A DNA stretch of 12,034 nucleotides from contig JAMDDA010000014.1 of the NCBI GenBank assembly GCA_023488925.1, positions 1-12,034 on the forward strand, read 5' to 3'. The notes below the pieces were generated by a model. It worked only from the letters and a program-made list of their open reading frames with translations. It made no database searches and had not been told where the DNA came from. The position numbers and the translations under genes were made by a program. Shown here piece after piece: positions 2,829 to 12,034 of this stretch. Source of the stretch: Actinomycetota bacterium. Lineage in GTDB: Bacteria; Actinomycetota; Thermoleophilia; RBG-16-64-13. Each line of letters begins with the position of its first letter. Within the stretch, counting starts at the first letter, position 1.

Positions 2829-4280
2829 TCAGCCGCCGCCCTCGAGGGTGCGGGCCCGGGCGAGGTCGCCCGGCTCGTCGATGTCCAGAAGCTCGCGGCC
2901 TTCTGCCGGCACCCCCACGACCGCCCCGGCGTAGCGTTCCAGCAACGACCGCGCTCCTCGGTCCCCAGTCAGCTCGAGTATCTGCGGCAGCAAGGACCGG
3001 TACAACACCACGGGGGGCCGCACGGAGCCCCGCCATTCAAGGCCCACCGCGGCCGCTCGGGGGTGGCGCCGGCGGGCTTCCAGCAACCGGGCGATCGTGG
3101 CAGCCGTAACGAAAGGCTGGTCACCCAACAACACCAGCACATCGCGGGCCGCCGACAAGGCTCTCACCCCCACGTGCAGGGAGGAGGCCATACCCCGCTC
3201 CGGATGGGGGTTCTGCGCCACCCGAAAGCCGCCCCCGGGCAGTTCTCGGCGAAGCACCGCGCCCACCCGGTCCGTGTCGACCCCGGCCACCACGATGACC
3301 TCGGCACAGGCACCCGAGCCTACCGCCGCCCCTCCGACGCGGCCGAGCACCGTGCCGCCGCCCAGCGCGGCCAAGACTTTGTCTCCCCCCATGCGCCGCG
3401 CCAGCCCGGCGGCGAGCACGATGGCGGCCGGCCGCGTGTCGGCCGGCCGCAGCACTTCCAGCACCGGTTCCCCCCCCTCGGGCCACCAGGGACCCTGCCC
3501 GGCCCTGCCTACCGACCCGGTCCATACTTCGAAGGGAGCCCGCGCCGCGGCCGCGCGCAGCGCGGCCGGCGGCGGGGCCACATCCGCTTTGTTCAGGAAA
3601 GCCAGGAACCGAGCCGGCGGGGAAATCGCGGCCGCGTATCCCCTCTCCAGGGCAAGTAGCGGCGCGGCCGGCGGCAGCCGCGATCCGAGGGGCAAACCCA
3701 GCAGCCCGGCCAGGAGCTCCGGCCGGTGCACGGCGCCTTCGTCGAGAAATGCTCCCTGGGCATCGAGGCCCGCCGTGCCCACCACCAAGCCGGCGCAGTC
3801 CGGCACCACGGGCTCCCAGGCAGCAGGCGCCTTGAGAGGGCGACCCGCCGAACCGTCGGCCTCGACCAGCACAGCCGCCACTCCGGGCAGATCGCGTAGC
3901 CCGCGAATCCAGTCCGAGGGCAGACCCTCCACCTTGCCCCCGTGGCAACGTCGTCCCACCAAGGGGCTACTCCCACCGGTTCGTGGGGCACCCGGTTCGT
4001 CGCCTCGCAACGGTCCCCCCTCGCGACCCAGGATCGCCGCCAGCTCCGCGAAGCTCTCCCCCAACACCAGCGGCCGGCCGCCCGACGCGGGGGGCCGCAC
4101 CTTGGTCGTGGTCGTGACGAGCACTCGAGCCCCCTCCCGCTCGTAGTGCCGAGCCAGCACCTCGAGGAGCGAACTCTTCCCCCCGGCTCCGACGGCGGCG
4201 ACGACCTCCGCCGGACCCAACCGCCAAAGGTCGGGCAGGCCGGCGGGCGCGGAATCCCTCCCCGCATGCTCCTTCAACAT
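2829..4280 (-). CDS. YqeC-MocA fusion: molybdenum hydroxylase accessory ATPase plus molybdenum cofactor cytidylyltransferase
   Basis: A 483-residue fusion. Residues about 20-255 match the YqeC family associated with selenium-dependent molybdenum hydroxylases, with a P-loop GAGGKSS (31-37), TTTTKVRPP, LVEADGSAGRPLK (about 138-150) and FLNKAD (228-233). Residues 284-480 are a MobA/MocA-type nucleotidyltransferase, with LAAGLARRMGGDK (289-301), ERGMASSL (361-368), the metal-binding GDQP (386-389) and LLDIDEPGDL near the end. MocA transfers CMP to molybdopterin to form the MCD cofactor used by xanthine-oxidase-family enzymes. I start at the ATG at 4280, preceded by AAGGGGG about 8 bases upstream. 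The longer open frame to 4463 would overlap the start of the divergent hydroxylase operon and is not family-like. The divergent position supports a role in maturing that hydroxylase. Confidence 0.88.
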   Translation of the reverse strand: MLKEHAGRDSAPAGLPDLWRLGPAEVVAAVGAGGKSSLLEVLARHYEREGARVLVTTTTKVRPPASGGRPLVLGESFAELAAILGREGGPLRGDEPGAPRTGGSSPLVGRRCHGGKVEGLPSDWIRGLRDLPGVAAVLVEADGSAGRPLKAPAAWEPVVPDCAGLVVGTAGLDAQGAFLDEGAVHRPELLAGLLGLPLGSRLPPAAPLLALERGYAAAISPPARFLAFLNKADVAPPPAALRAAAARAPFEVWTGSVGRAGQGPWWPEGGEPVLEVLRPADTRPAAIVLAAGLARRMGGDKVLAALGGGTVLGRVGGAAVGSGACAEVIVVAGVDTDRVGAVLRRELPGGGFRVAQNPHPERGMASSLHVGVRALSAARDVLVLLGDQPFVTAATIARLLEARRRHPRAAAVGLEWRGSVRPPVVLYRSLLPQILELTGDRGARSLLERYAGAVVGVPAEGRELLDIDEPGDLARARTLEGGG

Positions 4281-4343: not shown

Positions 4344-4352
4344 TGCTATACT
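4344..4352 (+). promoter_or_regulatory. Extended -10 promoter of the hydroxylase operon
   Basis: TGCTATACT (4344-4352) is an extended -10 element (TGnTATACT). There is no good -35; that position is instead occupied by a GC palindrome (GGCCGGG 4324-4330 with CCCGGCC 4334-4340). The predicted start is near 4359, giving a leader of about 100 bases before the ATG at 4462. The shared operator begins 9 bases after the -10. Confidence 0.5.
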
Positions 4353-4361
4353 CGCGGTGGG

Positions 4362-4383
4362 ATTGATTGGTCGGCCAGTTAAT
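4362..4383. promoter_or_regulatory. Shared operator palindrome, copy 1 (hydroxylase operon / YqeC-MocA)
   Basis: An imperfect 22-bp palindrome centred between 4372 and 4373, with the core TTGGTCGGCCAGTTAAT. All its internal mismatches are purine/purine or pyrimidine/pyrimidine swaps, so it reads as ATTRAYTGGYC and its mirror. The same motif, differing almost only by transitions, occurs at 10469-10490 and 11529-11550. Here it lies at or just after the predicted transcription start of the hydroxylase operon, where a bound repressor would block transcription. It also sits in the divergent region upstream of YqeC-MocA. Confidence 0.65.
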
Positions 4384-4461
4384 GCCGATGCCTCGGGGGG
4401 CGCAAACCGGTCGACAGGGAGAGGCTGTGCCCGACCGCAGCCGCAGAGGAGGTAAAGGTCC

Positions 4462-5334
4462 ATGTACCTGCCGGACTTCGATTATTACGCTCCGGAAAGC
4501 CTCGAGGAGGCCTGCAACCTCCTGAATGCGTTGGGGCCACGCGCCAAGGTCTTGGCAGGCGGCACCGACGTGCTGGTCAAGATGAAGCACGGCCTTTTGG
4601 CGCCCACGGCCCTGGTTTCCCTGAAAGCCCTCCACGAGCTGAAAGGTATCACTTACCAGCCGGGCCGGGGCGTCGTTATCGGGGCGCTCGCCACACACAA
4701 CGACCTGGTGAACTCCCCCATACTGCACGAGCGCTTTCTCTCCGTGAGCGAGGCCGCCCACCAGATGGCCAACAACCAGGTACGCAACCGCGGCACCGTC
4801 GGGGGCAATCTGGTCAACGCCATCCCCTCCGCCGACCTGCCCCCCATCCTCATCGCCCTCGATGCCTCCATCACGCTGGTGGGTTCCACGGGCAGCCGTT
4901 CGGTACCTCTGGACAGCTTCTTCACCGGCCCTTCCTGCTGCGTGATCGACCCGGAGGGCGAGATCCTCACCGAGGTCGTCCTCCCCGAGCAGGACACAAC
5001 CGGTAGCACCTATATCAAGTTCGGCCTGCGTCGCTCGGGCGCCCTCTCGGTGGCGGGCGTCGCCGTGGCCGTGACCATGGAGGGCGATGTCATCCGCGCC
5101 GCGCGCATCTGCCTGGGGGCTGTCTATCCCGTGCCCGTCCGGGCCAAGGACGCCGAAGAGGTACTGGTAGGCAAGAGGTGGAGCGACGACCTGTTGGCCG
5201 AAGCCGGGGAAGCGGCGGCCTGCTGCGCCCTGCCGATCTCCGACATCCGGGGGTCGGCCGAGTATCGGCTCGACCTGGTGCGGGCGTTGACCCGCCGGGC
5301 TCTGAAGCGGGCCATCACCGAGGGTCACGTCTAG
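4462..5334 (+). CDS. FAD-binding subunit of a molybdenum hydroxylase (CoxM/XdhB-type)
   Basis: A 290-residue member of the FAD-binding family of molybdopterin dehydrogenases. The two flavin-contact motifs are present: AGGTDVLV at 32-39 and RNRGTVGGNLVNAIPSAD at 108-125; GALATHNDL (74-82) is also typical. The C-terminal CO-dehydrogenase-flavoprotein domain follows from about 180. The subunit passes electrons between the 2Fe-2S clusters and an external acceptor. There is no cysteine-rich insertion after the GTVGGN segment, unlike the 4-hydroxybenzoyl-CoA reductase beta subunit, which carries an extra [4Fe-4S] loop. The start is well supported by AGAGGAGGT (4445-4453) 8 bases before the ATG. It is first in the operon, followed by the FeS subunit after a 51-base gap. 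Confidence 0.93.
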   Translation: MYLPDFDYYAPESLEEACNLLNALGPRAKVLAGGTDVLVKMKHGLLAPTALVSLKALHELKGITYQPGRGVVIGALATHNDLVNSPILHERFLSVSEAAHQMANNQVRNRGTVGGNLVNAIPSADLPPILIALDASITLVGSTGSRSVPLDSFFTGPSCCVIDPEGEILTEVVLPEQDTTGSTYIKFGLRRSGALSVAGVAVAVTMEGDVIRAARICLGAVYPVPVRAKDAEEVLVGKRWSDDLLAEAGEAAACCALPISDIRGSAEYRLDLVRALTRRALKRAITEGHV

Positions 5335-5385
5335 CCGCCGCAGGGGCGACCGGCCACAACCGCATAGAGAAAAGGGGACCACACC

Positions 5386-5970
5386 ATGCAGGCCATAGCC
5401 GACAGACAGGGCGTCAAGCGCTACGTGATCGACCTCACCGTCAACGGCGACCCGCACACGATCGTCGTCAAGGCCAACACTCTCCTCGTGAACGTGCTGC
5501 GCGACGAACTCGACCTCACCGGTACCAAGAAGGGCTGCGAGCTGGGCGATTGCGGCTCCTGCACCGTGCTGCTGGACGGCAAGCCCGTGGACGCCTGCCT
5601 AGTTCTGGCTGTGGAGGCCGACGGCCATGACATCGTCACCATCGAGGGCGTGGCCGAGCACGGAGAGCTCGACCGCCTGCAGCGCTCGTTCATCGACAAC
5701 GCCGCCGTGCAGTGCGGGTATTGCACGCCGGGCATGATCCTCTCCGCCAAGGCCCTGCTCACGCGGAACCCCCACCCCACCGAGCTCGAGGTCCGGCAGG
5801 CCATAGCCGGCAACCTCTGCCGCTGCACCGGCTACGTGAATATCGTGAAAGCCATCCTGGCGGCCGCCGATGGCTCTGCGCCGCAAACCGCCGCCGCCTC
5901 CGCATCCGCCGCCACTGCGACGACCAACGCCGCGGGAGTGACCGCCGGTCTCGGGGAGGAGGCCCGATGA
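5386..5970 (+). CDS. 2Fe-2S subunit of a molybdenum hydroxylase (CoxS/XdhC-type ferredoxin subunit)
   Basis: A 194-residue small subunit with both [2Fe-2S] clusters. The plant-ferredoxin-like N-terminal domain has C51, C56, C59 and C71 (GCELGDCGSC, then DAC). The four-helix C-terminal domain has C110, C113, C145 and C147 (QCGYCTPGM and NLCRCTGY). It relays electrons from the molybdenum centre to FAD. After residue about 162 there is a 30-residue Ala/Thr/Ser-rich tail not needed for the fold, making it longer than the usual roughly 160 residues. The ATG at 5386 follows a GGGGA Shine-Dalgarno. The stop overlaps the next gene's ATG (ATGA, 5967-5970), so the two are translationally coupled. Confidence 0.95.
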   Translation: MQAIADRQGVKRYVIDLTVNGDPHTIVVKANTLLVNVLRDELDLTGTKKGCELGDCGSCTVLLDGKPVDACLVLAVEADGHDIVTIEGVAEHGELDRLQRSFIDNAAVQCGYCTPGMILSAKALLTRNPHPTELEVRQAIAGNLCRCTGYVNIVKAILAAADGSAPQTAAASASAATATTNAAGVTAGLGEEAR

Positions 5971-8279
5971 GCACAGACACCAAACAGGACTATGCCGTCA
6001 TCGGCCACAGCGTGCCCAAGATCGACGCCCGCGAGAAGGTGACGGGCACGGCCAAGTACACGGCCGACCTGAAGTTCCCCAACATGCTCTACGGCAAGAT
6101 CCTCACCAGCCCCCACGCCCACGCCCGCATCCTCTCCATCGACACCTCCGAGGCGGAAAAGATCCCCGGCGTAAAGGCGGTGGTCACGCACAAGGACGCG
6201 CCCACTCTCAAGTACGGCATCAGCCCCGCCCGCTGGGACGAGAACATCTTCTGTATCGACAAGGTCCGCTTCGTCGGCGACAAGGTGGCCGCCGTGGCCT
6301 GCGTGGATGAAGAGACCTGCTACAAGGCCCTGGCGGCCATCAAGGTGGAGTACGAGGTGCTGCCCGCCGTGCTCGACCCCCTGCACGCCACGGACGAAGA
6401 CCAACCCCAGATCCACGACGAATTCCCGCGCAACATCAACGCCGAGATCCACCAGAACTTCGGCGACGTGGACGAGGCCTTCCGCCGCGCCCATTATGTC
6501 CGTACCGACACCTTCGTGGGCAACCGCACCTACCAAACGCCCTTGGAGCCGCATACGGCCACCTCGATGTGGGAGGGCGACAAGCTCACTGTCTACTCGA
6601 GCACGCAGTCACCCCACTACTTCCAGTACTACATCGCCCGCGAATTCGGGCTGCCCATGGGCAACGTGCGCGTCCTCAAGACCTACGTCGGCGGCGGCTT
6701 CGGCGGCAAGCTGGAGCCCACCGGCCTGGAGTTTGCCGGAGCTGTGCTCGCCCGCATCACCGGCCGCCCGGTGAAGATGTTCTACGACCGCGCCGAGATG
6801 TTTGCCCACAACCGGGGCCGCCACCGCCAATACATGACCCTGACCACCGGAGTCGACGAGAACGGCAAGATCCTGGGCGTACACGCCGACTTCATCATGG
6901 ATGGGGGGGCTTACACCAGCTTGGGCATCGCCACCGCGTACTACGCCGGCGCCATGCTCACCCTCACCTATGAGTTCGACAACTTCCGCTTCGACATGCT
7001 CCGGGTATACACGAATCTGCCCGCCTGCGGCGCCCAGCGCGGCCACGGGGCGCCTCAACCCCGCTACGCTTTCGAGGCCCACCTGGACAACATCGCCAAA
7101 GACCTGGGCATCGACCCCATCGAGATCCGCATACGCAACGCCCGCCGGCCGAACACCGTCACCCCCAACGAGTTCAAGGTGAACTCCTGCGAGCTCCGCG
7201 CCTGCCTGGAGAAAGCCCGGGAGATATCGGGCTGGAGGGAGAAGAAGGGCAAATTGCCCAAGGGCCGGGGCATCGGCGTAGCCACCGGGAGCTTCGTCTC
7301 CGGCGCCGGTTACCCCATCTACCGCACCGACTTGCCCCATGCCGCCGCCATGATCAAGGTCGGCGAGGACGGCACCTCGGCCACCCTCTACACCGGCGCC
7401 GTGGACATCGGCCAGGGCTCCGACACCGTGCTCTGCCAAATGGCGGCCGAGGCCATGGGCTATACCTACGAACAGATGAAGATCGTGGCCGCCGACACCG
7501 AGACCACCCCCCATGACTTCGGCGCCTACGCCAGCCGACAGACCCTCATGTCGGGGGCGGCTGTCCGCCAGGCGGGGGAAGAGGTCAAGCGCCAGCTCTT
7601 GGAGACCGCCGCCGAGATGCTGGACTTCCCCCCGGAGCAGCTCGACGTGCGCGCCGGCCGGGTTTTCGCCAAGGACAATCCCGAGACGACCCTCACCTTC
7701 GGGGAGGTGGCGCGCCGCCACTTCGTCACCAAGGGACCCCTGGTGGGCAAGGGCTCCTACACCCCGCCCAAGCTGGGTGGCACCTTCAAGGGAGCACCGG
7801 TGGGCACCTCCCCGGCCTATAGCTTCGCCGCCCAGGTGTCGGAGGTGGAGATCGACGAGGAGACGGGCGAGATCAAGGTGCTCGACGTCTGGGACGTGCA
7901 CGACTGCGGCACGGTGATCAACCCCTCCTTGCTGCACGCGCAGGTACACGGCGCCCTTTTCATGGGCATGGGCGAAGCCATTTGGGAGGAGGTCAAGTTC
8001 GACGGCAACGGCCGCATCCTCAACGCCAACCTCTCCGAGTACCGCCTGCCCACCGCGCTCGACATGCCGCGGGTTCACTCCGAGCTGGTGGAGTCGTACG
8101 ATCCGGCCGGGCCTTGGGGAGTCAAGGAAGTGGGGGAAGGAGCCACCTTGCCCACCATGGGCTGCTTCCGCAACGCCATCTTCGACGCCATGGGCGTGAG
8201 CGTGGACAGCCTGCCCCTCTCCTACGAGAAGGTATGGCGCGCCCTGAAAGAGAAGCGGGAGCGGGAGGCGGCCGGGTAG
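5967..8279 (+). CDS. Molybdopterin-binding catalytic subunit, xanthine oxidase family (4-hydroxybenzoyl-CoA reductase alpha-like)
   Basis: A 770-residue large subunit: aldehyde oxidase a/b hammerhead domain (about 20-135), then the molybdopterin-binding domain. Cofactor motifs are visible: VGGGFGGK (241-248), ACGAQRGHG (353-361) and DIGQGSDT (480-487). The catalytic base is expected at about E724 in GVKEVGEGA. The 353-361 loop and GKLPKGRGIGVA resemble the 4-hydroxybenzoyl-CoA reductase alpha subunit as I remember it. It lacks the CSFR loop of true CO dehydrogenase. The substrate is therefore an unknown hydroxylatable or reducible, perhaps aromatic, compound. The start at 5967 is chosen by GGAGGAGG (5955-5962) and the ATGA overlap; the frame is open further upstream but only inside the FeS gene. 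It is last in the operon, with a strong hairpin after the stop. Confidence 0.93.
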   Translation: MSTDTKQDYAVIGHSVPKIDAREKVTGTAKYTADLKFPNMLYGKILTSPHAHARILSIDTSEAEKIPGVKAVVTHKDAPTLKYGISPARWDENIFCIDKVRFVGDKVAAVACVDEETCYKALAAIKVEYEVLPAVLDPLHATDEDQPQIHDEFPRNINAEIHQNFGDVDEAFRRAHYVRTDTFVGNRTYQTPLEPHTATSMWEGDKLTVYSSTQSPHYFQYYIAREFGLPMGNVRVLKTYVGGGFGGKLEPTGLEFAGAVLARITGRPVKMFYDRAEMFAHNRGRHRQYMTLTTGVDENGKILGVHADFIMDGGAYTSLGIATAYYAGAMLTLTYEFDNFRFDMLRVYTNLPACGAQRGHGAPQPRYAFEAHLDNIAKDLGIDPIEIRIRNARRPNTVTPNEFKVNSCELRACLEKAREISGWREKKGKLPKGRGIGVATGSFVSGAGYPIYRTDLPHAAAMIKVGEDGTSATLYTGAVDIGQGSDTVLCQMAAEAMGYTYEQMKIVAADTETTPHDFGAYASRQTLMSGAAVRQAGEEVKRQLLETAAEMLDFPPEQLDVRAGRVFAKDNPETTLTFGEVARRHFVTKGPLVGKGSYTPPKLGGTFKGAPVGTSPAYSFAAQVSEVEIDEETGEIKVLDVWDVHDCGTVINPSLLHAQVHGALFMGMGEAIWEEVKFDGNGRILNANLSEYRLPTALDMPRVHSELVESYDPAGPWGVKEVGEGATLPTMGCFRNAIFDAMGVSVDSLPLSYEKVWRALKEKREREAAG

Positions 8280-8287
8280 AGCGGGCT

Positions 8288-8328
8288 TCTGGTGGCGGCC
8301 GGCGCCTCAGGCGCCGGCCGCCACCAGA
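8288..8328. terminator. Perfect 19-bp bidirectional terminator hairpin between convergent operons
   Basis: TCTGGTGGCGGCCGGCGCC (8288-8306) is exactly complementary to 8310-8328, with only three bases (TCA, 8307-8309) between. Those three bases are the AOR stop codon read from the minus strand, and the 8310-8328 arm encodes the last residues of AOR (LVAAGA). The + strand hydroxylase operon stops at 8279, nine bases before the stem. Only a short T-run (GACTTT) follows on the + strand and none on the minus strand. Confidence 0.75.
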
Positions 8329-10157
8329 CTTTCGAGCTCCGCGATCCGGTTCGCGGGCAGGCGACCCTCCTCATCCCAACCCCGCCGGCGGTAATAACGG
8401 GTGAGCAGACGCGCAAACTCCTCCCGCTCGATGTAATGCCCCTGGGCGGCGCCCAGAGGCGCCGGCTCCTCGAAGTAGCGGGGAGGAAGGGTGTCGTCGG
8501 CCCGGGTGAGTCCTTCGCGGGCGTTCAGCAGCCGCTCCAGGTCAATGACGCGTGCTCCCACCGCACGTAGCTCTTCCGGGCTCAGGTCCAGCCCCACCGC
8601 AAGGCGGGCGAGGGCCGCGAAGTGCTCGTAGCCGAGAAGCTTCGGGCTGTTCCAGAGCCGGCACACGAACCGGCAGATGCCCAGCGAGTCGCTCACGGCA
8701 AAGATCGTCTCGCTGGCCTCGACCATGATCTCCTTGGTGGCGTAGCCGGTCAGTTCGCCGTCGGTGGCCTCGCCGAACACCGCCGCGCGCACGTGGTCGG
8801 GCAGCTGGAGAATGTCGAGGGTGGGCCGGCTGCGCAGGTGGTCGGCTCCCCGGGACGAGATAGCCGTTCCCAGAGCGAAGCTCTTGATGTAGCGGACGTC
8901 GATGGGATCGGACTGGGGTAGGTTCTTCACCGCGCTCAGGTAGCGAGTGGCCTCGGCCGGCAGCAGACCCAACCGAGGAGCCTGCGACGACTCGGCGAGC
9001 ACAGCGCCGAAGCCGCGCCGCTCGGCGATGTCCTGCAGCAAGGCCTTCACCCGACCCACGTCGCCCCACGCGAGCGGACCGTCCGTCTGCGCGGCGGTGA
9101 GTAGCCCGCGCTCCGCCAGCTCCATCGCCCAGCCGATGATACCGCCGGCGGAGGCCGTGTCCAGACCCAGGTCGTTGCAGAGGTTGTTGAGCTCGATGAC
9201 CCCCACCAGGTCGTCGATTCCCAGGTTCGCGCCCAACAGCCCGACCGTTACGAACTCCGGACCCTCGCCCCCATACTTGTTCACGTGCCGGCAGTGCACC
9301 GTGCAGCCGGCACAGGCGACCATCCGCTCGACGTGCTCCTCCACCCGAGCGCCGTCCAGGGCGGCCGACCACTGGTTCAGCCGGGAGTTCTTCGTACGGA
9401 CGATGCCCAGGCGGTTCGCGTTCTCGTAGAGCATGGGCGTGCCCAGCTTCCCCAGGATCTTGATCACCTTGGAGGTGTGCAGGTACTCGTTGAGTTCTTT
9501 CCGCAGAGCGAGCAGAGCCTCCCGGTCGGCGATCTCCGGCTCCTGCTCGCCCGCCGCCACCACGGCCTTGAGCCTCTTGGACCCCATGACCGCTCCCATG
9601 CCTCCCCGCCCGGCAGCGTTTTTGCGGCCGTTCATGACACAGGCGAAGCGCACGAGATTTTCGCCGGCCCGACCGATCACCGCGGAACGGACGCCCCCGC
9701 CCAGGTCCTCCGCGAGGGCCGCCTGCGCGGCCGTCGCGTTCAGGCCCCAGTAGCGCCCCGCCGGCCGGATCTCCAGGTACCCCCGGCTCAAGTACAAGTA
9801 CACCGGCTCCTCGGCCCGGCCGGTGACCACGATCCGGTCGAAGCCCGACTTTTTCATGGCGGCCGGGAAGAAGCCGCCCATGTTCGCATCACCCAGGATG
9901 CCCGACTCGGGCGACTTGGCGCTGATGTTCATGCGTCCGGAGTTGGGGACCGGATAGCCGGTGAGGAGACCGGTGCCGAAGATCAACACGTTCTCGGGTC
10001 CCAAGGGATCGGCTCCGGCCGGGAGCAGACGGTACAGGTAGGCCATGTTGAGACCGCGGCCGCCCAAGAAAGCCCGCACCAGCTTCTCGGCGGTCGCTTC
10101 CACCCGGATGCTGCCCGCACTCAAGTCGACGAAGGCGGTCTTGCCCAGCAATGTCAT
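8307..10157 (-). CDS. aor: Tungsten-type aldehyde:ferredoxin oxidoreductase
   Basis: A 616-residue full-length AOR-family enzyme; Pyrococcus furiosus AOR is about 605. It oxidises aldehydes to carboxylic acids with ferredoxin, using a bis-molybdopterin tungsten (sometimes molybdenum) centre and one [4Fe-4S] cluster. Cluster ligands are visible at nearly the classical spacing: C282, C285 and C289 in CAGCTVHC, and C495 in SLGICRF. Other family motifs are GGRGLNMAYL (32-41), NGRKNAAGRGGMGAVMGSK (176-194), GPEF (299-302) and LGLDTASAGG (330-339). The ATG at 10157 follows AAGGGGGA. It sits 22 bases downstream of the MoaD-like gene in the same operon. Its 3' end is built into the convergent terminator. 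The substrate range is unknown; the IorA neighbour makes aryl aldehydes plausible. Confidence 0.93.
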   Translation of the reverse strand: MTLLGKTAFVDLSAGSIRVEATAEKLVRAFLGGRGLNMAYLYRLLPAGADPLGPENVLIFGTGLLTGYPVPNSGRMNISAKSPESGILGDANMGGFFPAAMKKSGFDRIVVTGRAEEPVYLYLSRGYLEIRPAGRYWGLNATAAQAALAEDLGGGVRSAVIGRAGENLVRFACVMNGRKNAAGRGGMGAVMGSKRLKAVVAAGEQEPEIADREALLALRKELNEYLHTSKVIKILGKLGTPMLYENANRLGIVRTKNSRLNQWSAALDGARVEEHVERMVACAGCTVHCRHVNKYGGEGPEFVTVGLLGANLGIDDLVGVIELNNLCNDLGLDTASAGGIIGWAMELAERGLLTAAQTDGPLAWGDVGRVKALLQDIAERRGFGAVLAESSQAPRLGLLPAEATRYLSAVKNLPQSDPIDVRYIKSFALGTAISSRGADHLRSRPTLDILQLPDHVRAAVFGEATDGELTGYATKEIMVEASETIFAVSDSLGICRFVCRLWNSPKLLGYEHFAALARLAVGLDLSPEELRAVGARVIDLERLLNAREGLTRADDTLPPRYFEEPAPLGAAQGHYIEREEFARLLTRYYRRRGWDEEGRLPANRIAELESLVAAGA

Positions 10158-10179
10158 AGAAATCCCCCTTGCCCCGGCC

Positions 10180-10461
10180 TCAACCGCCCGAGAGCATCAG
10201 CTGCACCACCACCCGGTCGCCGTCGCGCAGGCGCAGGTCCTTCAACCGGCCCCCGGGTACGGCTCGCCCGTTGACGAACACCGAAGGCGGCCCTTCCTCG
10301 CCGGCCCAAGACTCCGCGGCCTCGCCGTGTGCCCCGGCCAGCGCCAGGAGTTCCCGGAGCGTGAGGCCGGCGGCCGCCCGCTCGGGCGGGATCTCGACCT
10401 CGGCTTCGCGGACGCCCCAGTCACGCCAGAAAGGCTCTCCGAGAACGAGCGATACGGTCAT
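10180..10461 (-). CDS. MoaD/ThiS-family small sulfur-carrier-like protein
   Basis: A 93-residue beta-grasp protein. The C-terminal half has the family pattern: VFVNGRAV (about 63-70), then LKDLRLRDGDRVVVQLMLSGG ending in the required Gly-Gly. In MoaD this terminus is thiocarboxylated and donates sulfur to build molybdopterin. Such proteins are often encoded next to AOR-family genes, which supports a role in AOR cofactor supply or maturation. I chose the ATG at 10461, with a GGGAA about 7 bases upstream. A TTG at 10485 in frame would add eight residues but lies inside the operator and has no Shine-Dalgarno. It is first in the MoaD-AOR operon. Confidence 0.82.
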   Translation of the reverse strand: MTVSLVLGEPFWRDWGVREAEVEIPPERAAAGLTLRELLALAGAHGEAAESWAGEEGPPSVFVNGRAVPGGRLKDLRLRDGDRVVVQLMLSGG

Positions 10462-10468
10462 GGCGATT

Positions 10469-10490
10469 CCCAGTTGGCCGGTCAACCAAT
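10469..10490. promoter_or_regulatory. Shared operator palindrome, copy 2 (MoaD-AOR operon)
   Basis: Read on the minus strand, this is ATTGGTTGACCGGCCAACTG followed by GG. The inner 12 bases (TTGGCC|GGTCAA on the + strand) form a near-perfect palindrome centred between 10479 and 10480. It matches copy 1 at 14 of 22 positions, and nearly all differences are transitions. It starts 8 bases after the predicted -10 of the MoaD-AOR promoter, the same placement as copy 1, and ends just before the MoaD Shine-Dalgarno. Confidence 0.65.
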
Positions 10491-10498
10491 ACGCGGAG

Positions 10499-10507
10499 AG
10501 GATACCA
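10499..10507 (-). promoter_or_regulatory. Extended -10 promoter of the MoaD-AOR operon
   Basis: On the minus strand the sequence is TGGTATCCT: an extended -10 (TGnTATnnT), with the TG at 10507-10506 and TATCCT at 10504-10499. There is no good -35 upstream. The start is predicted near 10492, giving a leader of about 30 bases to the MoaD ATG at 10461. It lies in the 123-base gap after the PNPOx gene, so MoaD-AOR can be transcribed separately. Confidence 0.5.
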
Positions 10508-10584
10508 CGCCGGCCGCCGGCTCGGGTTCCCCGGACAACCGCGGGGTAGGCTCCCGGCGTGTCGCCCGACAGTCGAGTCGCGCT

Positions 10585-11112
10585 TCAGTCGCGCAGCTCG
10601 AGCACCTCCCGCCCGAAGAGGCCGCTGCGGTTGTCGGTGAAAGCCGCCCGCAGCGGCGTCACGCGAAAGACCTCGATACCCTTCAGGGCGGCGGCCAGAC
10701 GCCGATCAGTCAAGAGTTCACGCACAAAGGGGAAGCGGGCGACGTACGTGGCCAGCGCCGCCGCCCGTTCGAAGCCCGAAAGGACGACCGCCTCCCCCCA
10801 GAGCTGCACGCCCTGGATCTCCCGCCACGCCTGGAACTCCTCGGCCACGGTGACGGCCACAGGGCTCCCCTCGCGTATATGGGTACCGTGCAGGCTGGTG
10901 CCTTTGCTCAGAAAGATCAGGCGTAACGCGTCATCGACGGCGTAGAACACGGTGGCGGCGTGAGGCACCACGGTGGGCAGAGATGCGGACAGACCGCCCA
11001 CCGCCCCAGGGGGGAGACTCCCGCCCGCTGCGCCCGGACGCCCGCAGGTGGCCACGGACATTGTGTGGTGACTGCGTAGGTAGGCCTCGATGCGGGCCCG
11101 CAGCTCCACCAC
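10585..11112 (-). CDS. Pyridoxamine 5'-phosphate oxidase-family (split-barrel flavin-binding) protein
   Basis: A 175-residue member of the PNPOx-like split-barrel family, which usually binds FMN or a related flavin and may act as a reductase or flavin carrier. Typical strands are visible: HAATVFYAVDDALRLIFLSK (51-70), GTSLHGTHIREGSPVAVTV and IQGVQLWGEAVVL, followed by the C-terminal FRVTPLRAAFTDN segment. A Gly/Ala/Pro/Ser-rich stretch at about 27-49 interrupts the usual short GRPxAATVFY hairpin. The start is a GTG at 11112, strongly supported by AAGGAGG (11119-11125 on the + strand) six bases upstream. The true substrate is unknown. It lies upstream of MoaD-AOR on the same strand, but a promoter in the gap suggests a separate transcript. 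Confidence 0.85.
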   Translation of the reverse strand: MVELRARIEAYLRSHHTMSVATCGRPGAAGGSLPPGAVGGLSASLPTVVPHAATVFYAVDDALRLIFLSKGTSLHGTHIREGSPVAVTVAEEFQAWREIQGVQLWGEAVVLSGFERAAALATYVARFPFVRELLTDRRLAAALKGIEVFRVTPLRAAFTDNRSGLFGREVLELRD

Positions 11113-11244
11113 TTTCCGCCTCCTTCCTCGCCGCCCGCGGCGTGACCAATCCCGCCGGGAGTCCGAGTGTTTCGCGGAAGCTCCCAGGCGCGCCCTGGAG
11201 TCTACACCGAAAGCGCGCGGCCGCCCGCCGCAAGGTGGAGTCGG

Positions 11245-11283
11245 TGCACGAACGAGGAGCGGCTTGCACGAACAAGGGGCGGC
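11245..11283. repeat. Two-copy imperfect tandem repeat, 20-base period
   Basis: TGCACGAACGAGGAGCGGC (11245-11263) and TGCACGAACAAGGGGCGGC (11265-11283) differ at 2 of 19 positions and are offset by 20 bases, about two helical turns. This spacing suits side-by-side binding of a protein on one DNA face. The second copy runs into the left arm of the hairpin at 11274-11314. Confidence 0.55.
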
Positions 11284-11314
11284 GGCCGGTGTCGGTCACC
11301 GCCCGCCGCCCCTT
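11274..11314. repeat. Strong 41-base hairpin in a divergent intergenic region
   Basis: AAGGGGCGGCGG (11274-11285) pairs perfectly with CCGCCGCCCCTT (11303-11314). After one C/C mismatch, an inner stem CGGTG (11287-11291) pairs with CACCG (11297-11301), leaving a 5-base loop. No U-tract follows on either strand. It could be a GC-type terminator, the core of a small RNA, or a processing or protein-binding site. Confidence 0.5.
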
Positions 11315-11526
11315 GCCATCTCGGAGCGGGGCCCTACCCCCCGGATTCCGCCACCCCCCGTCGGCGGGTCCGGGCGAACCACCGCCTCCAAGCCGCTACG
11401 CGCTCCCGGCCTCCGGGTCGCGGCCGCCACGGACGAGTGCACATGGCGGCGGCGACAACTCCCCGGCCCCCCAGTCGGGGCGTGTCGCCCGCAGCGACGA
11501 CGTTCCCCCCGGAACGGACCTTCCCC

Positions 11527-11555
11527 TTGCTAGCTGACCGGCCAATTAGTAAAAT
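11527..11555 (+). promoter_or_regulatory. Candidate iorA promoter
   Basis: TTGCTA (11527-11532) and TAAAAT (11550-11555) are spaced by 17 bases, with 4/6 and 5/6 matches to consensus. The start is predicted near 11562, which leaves a leader of about 220 bases to iorA. The operator palindrome fills the spacer exactly, so a bound repressor would exclude RNA polymerase. Confidence 0.5.
11529..11550. promoter_or_regulatory. Shared operator palindrome, copy 3 (iorA)
   Basis: The core CTGACCGGCCAATTAGT lies within a 22-bp imperfect palindrome centred between 11539 and 11540 (arms CTAGCTGACC / GGCCAATTAG). It shares TGRYCGGCCARYT with the other two copies, and its differences from copy 1 are all transitions. 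It lies between the -35 and -10 of the candidate iorA promoter. Confidence 0.62.
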
Positions 11556-11780: not shown

Positions 11781-12034
11781 ATGCGAGAGATCTTGTCAGG
11801 TAACGAGGCGATCGCCCGGGGGGCGTGGGAAGCCGGAGTGCGGCTGGCGGCGGCCTATCCAGGCACGCCGAGCACCGAGATCCTCGAGAACATCGCTACA
11901 TACCCAGACGTCTACAGCGAATGGGCTCCCAACGAGAAGGTGGCCCTGGAGGTGGGGCTGGGCGCGGCTGTCGCCGGCGCCCGTGCCCTGGTGGCGATGA
12001 AACACGTGGGCGTCAACGTGGCCGCGTTCCCAGC
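11781..12034 (+). CDS. iorA: Indolepyruvate:ferredoxin oxidoreductase alpha subunit, N-terminal part
   Basis: The first 84 residues of IorA are present; the gene continues past the window edge. IorA/IorB convert aryl pyruvates (indolepyruvate, phenylpyruvate) to aryl-acetyl-CoA with thiamine diphosphate and reduce ferredoxin. The start MREILSGNEAIARGAWEAGV, then YPGTPSTEI, EWAPNEKVALEVGLGAAVAG and ARALVAMKHVGVNVAA, is the characteristic IorA N-terminus. YPGTPSTEI belongs to the pyruvate-ferredoxin-oxidoreductase-like domain. GGAGG (11771-11775) lies 5 bases before the ATG, fixing the start. Downstream iorB is expected but unseen. The ferredoxin link to AOR and the shared operator suggest co-regulation. 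Confidence 0.9.
   Translation, partial: MREILSGNEAIARGAWEAGVRLAAAYPGTPSTEILENIATYPDVYSEWAPNEKVALEVGLGAAVAGARALVAMKHVGVNVAAFP

Follow-up and report, generated by a model that had tools for sequence, protein, structure and literature searches.

A palindromic operator shared by three transcription units and its probable link to an autoregulated TetR repressor of anaerobic aromatic genes in Thermoleophilia

The stretch of DNA considered here (the window) is the whole contig JAMDDA010000014.1 (C106, 12,034 bases) of a Thermoleophilia metagenome-assembled genome (MAG), G000, which comprises 1.25 Mb in 221 contigs and is 65% complete. The window carries genes for a molybdenum (Mo) hydroxylase (hcrB, hcrC and hcrA) with a divergent yqeC-mocA fusion, a moaD gene with an aldehyde ferredoxin oxidoreductase (AOR) family gene, and the beginning of iorA, with a 22-bp palindrome in front of each of these units (Table 1). 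An initial annotation, made from the letters of this stretch, had viewed the three copies as the shared operator of a local redox regulon, under one dimeric regulator encoded outside the window. Comparison with related genomes supports the shared operator and a regulator encoded elsewhere, but neither "local" nor "redox". The palindrome most likely serves as the binding site of an autoregulated TetR repressor that controls dispersed genes of anaerobic aromatic metabolism and is probably released by an aryl-CoA ester.

The three palindromes lie where the initial annotation had placed them, and its statement that no other full match occurs in the window is also correct, as TGRYCGGCCARYT matches at three places only, which are exactly these palindromes. 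The starts of hcrB, yqeC, moaD and iorA confirm that the copies stand upstream of three different units. A degenerate 20-bp palindrome, YTRRYTGRYCGRYCARYYAR, describes sites 1 and 3 exactly and site 2 with one mismatch; at up to three mismatches it is found three times in the window, compared with a mean of 0.16 and a maximum of 2 in 200 dinucleotide shuffles, none of which reached three hits. When scored with a matrix derived from the family sites with G000 left out, sites 1 (32.1), 3 (24.0) and 2 (18.6) occupy the first three ranks in the window, the best other position scoring 3.4, the best of 31 mononucleotide shuffles 11.1 and the reversed window 13.9. Judged by these values, site 2 is the weakest of the three copies. 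The two arms of the sites differ by transitions, with the exception of one A/C difference in site 2. This site also deviates at one end, where a GGGA, which may be read as Shine-Dalgarno-like, is located 6 nt before the moaD ATG, the site itself being seven to eight bases from that codon.

The distribution of the sites was followed in a family set of 18 genomes, which includes G000 and the same-genus G009, by calling matches to the YTRRYTGRYCGRYCARYYAR-type pattern at up to one mismatch and comparing them with a control pattern. Six relatives carrying orthologs of one TetR gene hold 36 sites against 6 control matches (sites/control: G004 2/1, G005 3/2, G006 8/0, G007 9/0, G008 7/0 and G009 7/3), whereas the eleven family genomes lacking the ortholog hold 3 sites in all, none or one in each, against 4 for the control. 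In G000, 3 sites and one control match were counted. The relatives with at least two sites are exactly the six ortholog carriers, a split for which the chance is 1 in 12,376 if six of 17 genomes are drawn at random, a combinatorial figure that ignores kinship. The sites are dispersed over each genome, for which reason the regulon cannot be called local. The loci of all 36 sites in these six genomes were inspected. Equal densities in coding and promoter regions, named in the initial annotation as a sign against an operator, were not encountered: 34 of these sites are intergenic (28) or at the 5' end of a called gene (6), compared with 7 of 11 control hits inside genes and 4 of 11 between them. 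The genes were called with a custom codon-score script rather than a standard gene finder, the two sites scored as interior fall in open reading frames (ORFs) judged doubtful (one a weak antisense ORF), and of the control hits between genes at least one (L122) coincides in part with a real site.

A scan with PF00440 of eight genomes revealed TetR genes adjoining sites in G005 to G009. With the G008 TetR (221 aa) as query, orthologs with 66-75% identity were detected in G004, G005, G006, G007 and G009, and a search of 299 genomes of the class at E 1e-30, scoring at most ten candidates per genome, gave matches in the six carriers and in G000 (a 43% paralog), and none in the other 292. A site is present directly upstream of the tetR ortholog in all six genomes, with one mismatch in G005, G006, G007 and G008 and two mismatches in G004 and G009; in G006 it overlaps the longest called ORF but precedes the MARPRS start. 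Six proteins (the TetRs of G004, G005, G006, G008 and G009 and a 73% database homolog) all match the Pfam models TetR_N (45-55 bits, cut-off 24) and TetR_C_6 above cut-off, four of them also passing a YsiA-like C-terminal model, and two further TetRs of G000 are likewise positive for TetR_N. In a profile search the top solved structures were 1vi0 and 3whb (fatty acid metabolism regulator), followed in third place by MbdR (4uds). FadR of Bacillus is a TetR-type fatty-acid regulator, but the NCBIfam FadR equivalog cut-off is not reached by the G008 protein (78.1 vs 200 bits). At E 1e-20 a protein database yielded 49 clusters with 65-100% identity and one with 76% over a partial length, the next being at most 50% identical, and the three of these 50 with an assigned organism are all from Thermoleophilia. 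The recognition segment GVSKGLISYYF is invariant across 33 aligned homologs.

The genes behind the sites indicate what such a regulator would control. A site precedes hcrB in G000, G009, G006, G007 and G008, and bamB in G009, G006, G007 and G008 as well as a second copy (55%) in G008. The G009 protein scores 830 bits against the solved BamB and 226 bits against the next structure, identifying it as BamB rather than AOR, and its orthologs in G006, G007 and G008 are 78% identical to it. Sites are also found at a thiolase-oah unit, with one mismatch in G006 and G007 and two in G000 and G009, at a thiolase/3-hydroxyacyl-CoA dehydrogenase operon in G006 and G007, at an activase-bzdQ pair in G007 and G008, and at a short-chain dehydrogenase/reductase (SDR) gene in G006 to G009, whose best NCBIfam model, scanned for G007, is BadH, below cut-off. 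HdrB/HdrA-like genes follow a site in G004 and G005, as does an HdrA-like gene in G008. For hcrB, bamB and the SDR gene, the genomes with a site represent several genera. Not every site fits the pattern, one in G005 being near a contig end. Oah passes its NCBIfam equivalog cut-off in G000 (569.5 vs 464.45 bits), G004, G007 and G009, and BzdQ does so in G007, G008 and G009. The redox theme is not borne out, as the targets passing a specific family cut-off are enzymes of anaerobic aromatic (benzoyl-CoA) metabolism. An additional target in G009 is a two-gene phosphoenolpyruvate (PEP)-synthase-like pair, which may resemble phenylphosphate synthase. Between the activase-bzdQ genes and the tetR site of G009 there is a 3-kb stretch (L029, 5425-8448) that contains a single long ORF, itself of uncertain coding status.

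Conservation upstream of orthologous operons, the other comparison proposed in the initial annotation, differs among the three copies. Site 1 recurs in all four aligned relatives, and in the alignment of the five species the operator is the best-conserved block of the yqeC-hcrB region, its 20 bp being better conserved than the flanks. Site 3 is retained at iorA in G009, with the same layout, and site 2 is not retained at the only close AOR ortholog, in G008.

Within the window, HcrA finds its best match in the PDB in the 4-hydroxybenzoyl-CoA reductase (4-HBCR) structure 1rm6 (573.8 bits vs 291.5 for the next). The window AOR was considered as a BamB and rejected, since it scores 370 bits against solved AOR and 185 bits against BamB structures. 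It has one close ortholog among the 18 genomes, in G008 (69%), the remaining matches being at most 41% identical. In record L024, whose gene map equals that of the G008 contig where they overlap, the AOR ends a cluster holding a phenylphosphate carboxylase alpha subunit above cut-off. With HcrA above its own cut-off, this suggests that the units of the window fit aromatic-compound metabolism. The reaction of IorA can yield aryl-acetyl-CoA. A PNPOx-like gene (10585-11112) is located near the moaD-AOR unit, and a similar-looking gene, compared by eye, stands beside a UbiX-like gene and iorA in G009 (L028, 14115-15304).

Table 1. Genes, palindromic sites and promoter-like elements of the window.
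Feature	Coordinates	Strand	Remarks
yqeC-mocA fusion (YqeC + MobA-like NTP transferase)	2829..4280	-	start ~4280; probable role in Mo-enzyme maturation
-10-like hexamer TATACT	4347..4352	+	10 nt before the 20-bp core of operator 1, towards hcrB
operator 1	4362..4383	.	intergenic, with hcrB and yqeC-mocA diverging from it; hcrB preceded by a copy in G009, G006, G007, G008 as well
HcrB-like Mo-hydroxylase FAD subunit	4462..5334	+	ATG at 4462; 127 vs 404.55 bits, below 4-HBCR beta cut-off
HcrC-like Mo-hydroxylase [2Fe-2S] subunit	5386..5970	+	189.5 vs cut-off 257.8 (below)
HcrA, 4-hydroxybenzoyl-CoA reductase alpha subunit	5964..8279	+	TIGR03194, 1158 bits, cut-off 994.55
AOR family protein, not BamB	8307..10157	-	
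MoaD/ThiS-like protein	10180..10461	-	ATG at 10461
operator 2	10469..10490	.	precedes moaD-AOR; weakest of the three, overlapped at one end by a Shine-Dalgarno-like GGGA
-10-like hexamer TATCCT	10499..10504	-	9 nt before the operator 2 core, towards moaD
iorA promoter-like TTGCTA-17-TAAAAT	11527..11555	+	site 3 over its 17-bp spacer
operator 3	11529..11550	.	overlaps -35/-10 spacer of iorA promoter; same layout in G009
iorA, indolepyruvate ferredoxin oxidoreductase alpha	11781..12034	+	ATG at 11781; POR_N domain; cut by contig end; aligned with G009 iorA region

The position of the sites relative to promoters was scanned for 37 oriented sites, with orientation assigned from the neighbouring genes; of the 44 rows, seven were left out here (four 2-mismatch sites, the yqeC orientation, the contig-end site and a far-upstream G009 site), and nine were left out of the matrix (the four 2-mismatch sites, the yqeC orientation, the contig-end site and three AT-rich sites of C24 and C28). 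A -10-like hexamer occurs 3-14 nt upstream of the operator at 22 of the 37 sites, compared with a mean of 2.2 and a maximum of 8 in 500 runs with shuffled flanks, and at four other sites the operator holds the -35 element. At iorA the operator overlaps the spacer between -35 and -10. With the hexamer directly before the operator a bound dimer would cover the transcription start, and both placements are consistent with repression, rather than activation, by a simple DNA-binding dimer. The TetR dimer would cover the start downstream of the -10 element or overlap the -35/-10 region, blocking RNA polymerase, until an accumulating aromatic CoA thioester, with benzoyl-CoA and 4-hydroxybenzoyl-CoA as the likeliest candidates, binds to the C-terminal domain. 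The ligand-bound dimer would then release the DNA, allowing joint expression of the regulator and of the dispersed genes for the anaerobic benzoyl-CoA pathway and the routes that feed it. The window genes coupled in this way would be those for the 4-hydroxybenzoyl-CoA reductase and YqeC-MocA, AOR and MoaD, and IorA. FadR senses a CoA thioester. Since this is also the case for MbdR, and the regulated pathway runs via aryl-CoA, an aryl-CoA ester is the best guess for the inducer.

Several observations weigh against the proposed TetR repressor of aromatic genes. The TetR ortholog was not found in the window's own assembly, where only the 43% paralog at a contig end was detected; with an assembly 65% complete this is no proof of absence, and for the window the link is made through G009, of the same genus, in which sites and gene occur together. 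Outside the genus site 3 is not conserved, the best iorA loci of G004 to G008 (L111-L115, the G008 locus being only 53% identical) giving no hit at up to four mismatches, and second-copy iorA loci (L116-L120) giving hits at three to four mismatches or none. Site 2 is absent from its single close ortholog, in G008. HcrB and HcrC remain under their 4-HBCR equivalog cut-offs, and the beta subunit is short (290 aa). By the scan, 11 of the 37 sites have neither promoter layout, although two of them are the iorA sites, where the -35 is either weak or begins immediately beyond the sequence that was scanned. The best NCBIfam and Pfam C-terminal matches of the regulator are BetI-type, below cut-off or just generic (NCBIfam BetI models, the best-scoring, 84.2 vs 201.3 and 83.1 vs 118 bits), so that family scans do not settle an acyl-CoA ligand class. 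At two mismatches, the control pattern is found about as often as the site pattern, or more often, in seven of eight genomes, G007 (17 vs 5 for the control) being the exception; weaker sites can therefore not be called by sequence alone, and the two-mismatch scan was not used to call sites. In G000 that scan returned the three window sites and four weaker hits. Two of the latter lie directly upstream of the thiolase gene that is followed by oah, and only the first, C121:6041 (matrix score 20.8), is strongly supported and was kept as likely, because a near-identical site precedes the same gene in G009. The others are weaker candidates (C121:6133, 12.5; C134:3660, 13.7; C40:1380, 10.7, inside a gene). 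Finally, an AT-rich variant with different neighbouring genes accounts for three of the 36 sites, in G006 and G007, and may belong to another regulator. These palindromes, of the CTAATTGATCGATTAATCAG type, are at 7547 and 15142 of L053 (G006 C24) and at 2545 of L054 (G007 C28); the genes nearby include NAD-binding dehydrogenase/SDR-like ones and a second, distant TetR, and a separate regulon is probable.

Further contrary evidence comes from the class-wide counts, with 257 pattern hits vs 200 control hits in 281 genomes outside the family and a clear excess in families f5 (91 vs 32) and f9 (28 vs 10). This excess, where no ortholog was found, implies that similar operators are used by other regulators. 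The operators might then be part of a general fatty-acid/acyl-CoA (FadR-like) regulon of Thermoleophilia in which the aromatic genes are merely included. In six genomes of f5, f7 and f9, 10 of 18 loci have the palindrome beside acyl-CoA dehydrogenase-, thiolase-, electron transfer flavoprotein- or other TetR-like genes, classified by eye from the beginnings of the proteins; the neighbours at the remaining eight loci are different genes. Such a general regulon is nonetheless unlikely, considering that the TetR ortholog was not found in those genomes, that the centre of many of their sites is CCAG/CTGG instead of the CCGG type, and that in the window's family the targets passing a specific cut-off or structure match are aromatic-pathway enzymes. 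The ten loci (L135, L136, L138, L142-L147 and L149, of which L143 and L149 overlap) carry palindromes resembling TTGACTGGTCAGTCAACCAG. It may be that an old operator grammar is common to the acyl-CoA TetR regulators of the class, with the aromatic regulator as a specialised branch.

Less probable still is that a different TetR paralog, of the G000 C202 type or of a clade with 52% identity, acts at the sites, with the ortholog being one of several related repressors sharing them. The G000 assembly does carry the C202 paralog, an 87% match to one of the G009 TetRs, whose gene is some 1 kb away from a second iorA, and palindromes of a related kind stand upstream of the 52% clade members in G006 to G009 at three to four mismatches, such as TTGGTCGGCCGGTCAG (G006) and TTGGTCGGGCGGTCAG (G007). 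The C202-type paralogs, however, have no upstream site at up to five mismatches in G000, G008 (109 nt of upstream sequence only) and G009, and sites only at five to six mismatches in G006 and G007, in contrast to the orthologs, six of six of which have one at one or two mismatches. The paralogs of 50-52% identity in G009, G008, G007 and G006 (L075-L078) include those of G006 and G007 with an upstream palindrome like TTGGTCGGSCGGTCAG, likely a sister operator, and those of G004 and G005 (L079, L080) have no upstream palindrome at up to five mismatches. A third TetR paralog is located close to the second iorA in G009 (C1:2606328 and 2607853), G006 C22 and G007 C12; its G000 ortholog (87%) is C202:3788, at a contig end. 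That the palindromes are due to chance or are structural (a repeat element or terminator), with no regulatory role, is extremely improbable, for although TGGCCG/CGGCCA words occur 33 times in this GC-rich window, the shuffle results, the cross-species conservation and the co-occurrence with one gene all speak against it.

The proposed repressor of aromatic genes has its nearest functional parallel in MbdR, the TetR repressor of anaerobic 3-methylbenzoate degradation in Azoarcus sp. CIB, which its authors called the first TetR member of its group for anaerobic aromatic catabolism (PMC4424350). MbdR occupies the transcription start and the -10 element, at certain promoters the -35 element as well, and also binds the promoter of its own gene (PMC4424350). 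Membership of the TetR family, repression of an anaerobic pathway of aromatic CoA thioesters, several operators at promoter elements and autoregulation would be shared features. MbdR recognises ATACN10GTAT at the promoters of the mbd cluster and is released by 3-methylbenzoyl-CoA and not by benzoyl-CoA (PMC4424350), whereas the candidate operator here is TTGGTTGGYC-GRCCARYYAA-like, does not correspond to the MbdR operator, and belongs to a regulon scattered genome-wide. Another TetR repressor of an aromatic CoA-thioester pathway is PaaR of Thermus thermophilus (TTHA0973), but it binds AACnAACGTTnGTT, responds to phenylacetyl-CoA and controls a phenylacetate pathway with an epoxide step (PMC6651687). 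Among solved structures, fatty-acid FadR chains of the TetR type are some of the nearest in sequence, and FadR also has a dispersed regulon, while Thermus FadR has the consensus TTRNACYNRGTNYAA and controls fatty-acid genes (PMC5597230). Benzoyl-CoA pathways are also controlled by BzdR/BoxR, BadR/BadM, BgeR and another Geobacter system, with BzdR/BoxR belonging to the XRE family and BadR to the MarR family, unlike the TetR protein here; the regulators named in that account are from Geobacter, Rhodopseudomonas and Azoarcus (PMC4424350). A TetR-like gene is mentioned in Gram-positive bad-ali clusters (PMC9795900). Among the titles and abstract openings listed in literature searches, none describes a benzoyl-CoA regulator of Thermoleophilia.

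Aryl-CoA-responsive TetR repressors are therefore already known from MbdR and PaaR, with other operators. What appears to be new is the operator, its assignment to a TetR group found by class search in this family only, and a dispersed regulon that would take in both BamB and bzdQ-type genes. More tentatively, and with less than even confidence, one aryl-CoA-sensing TetR could be the master switch of a genome-wide anaerobic aromatic regulon in Thermoleophilia, joining bzd-type (ATP-dependent), Bam (tungsten-dependent) and peripheral routes, and could derive from the FadR-like regulators of the class with the operator grammar kept and the ligand changed. With an operator matrix assigned to one regulator, the full aromatic regulon, genes without a known role among them, could be mapped in a lineage for which the records here are MAGs, and the TetR protein becomes a candidate aryl-CoA biosensor.

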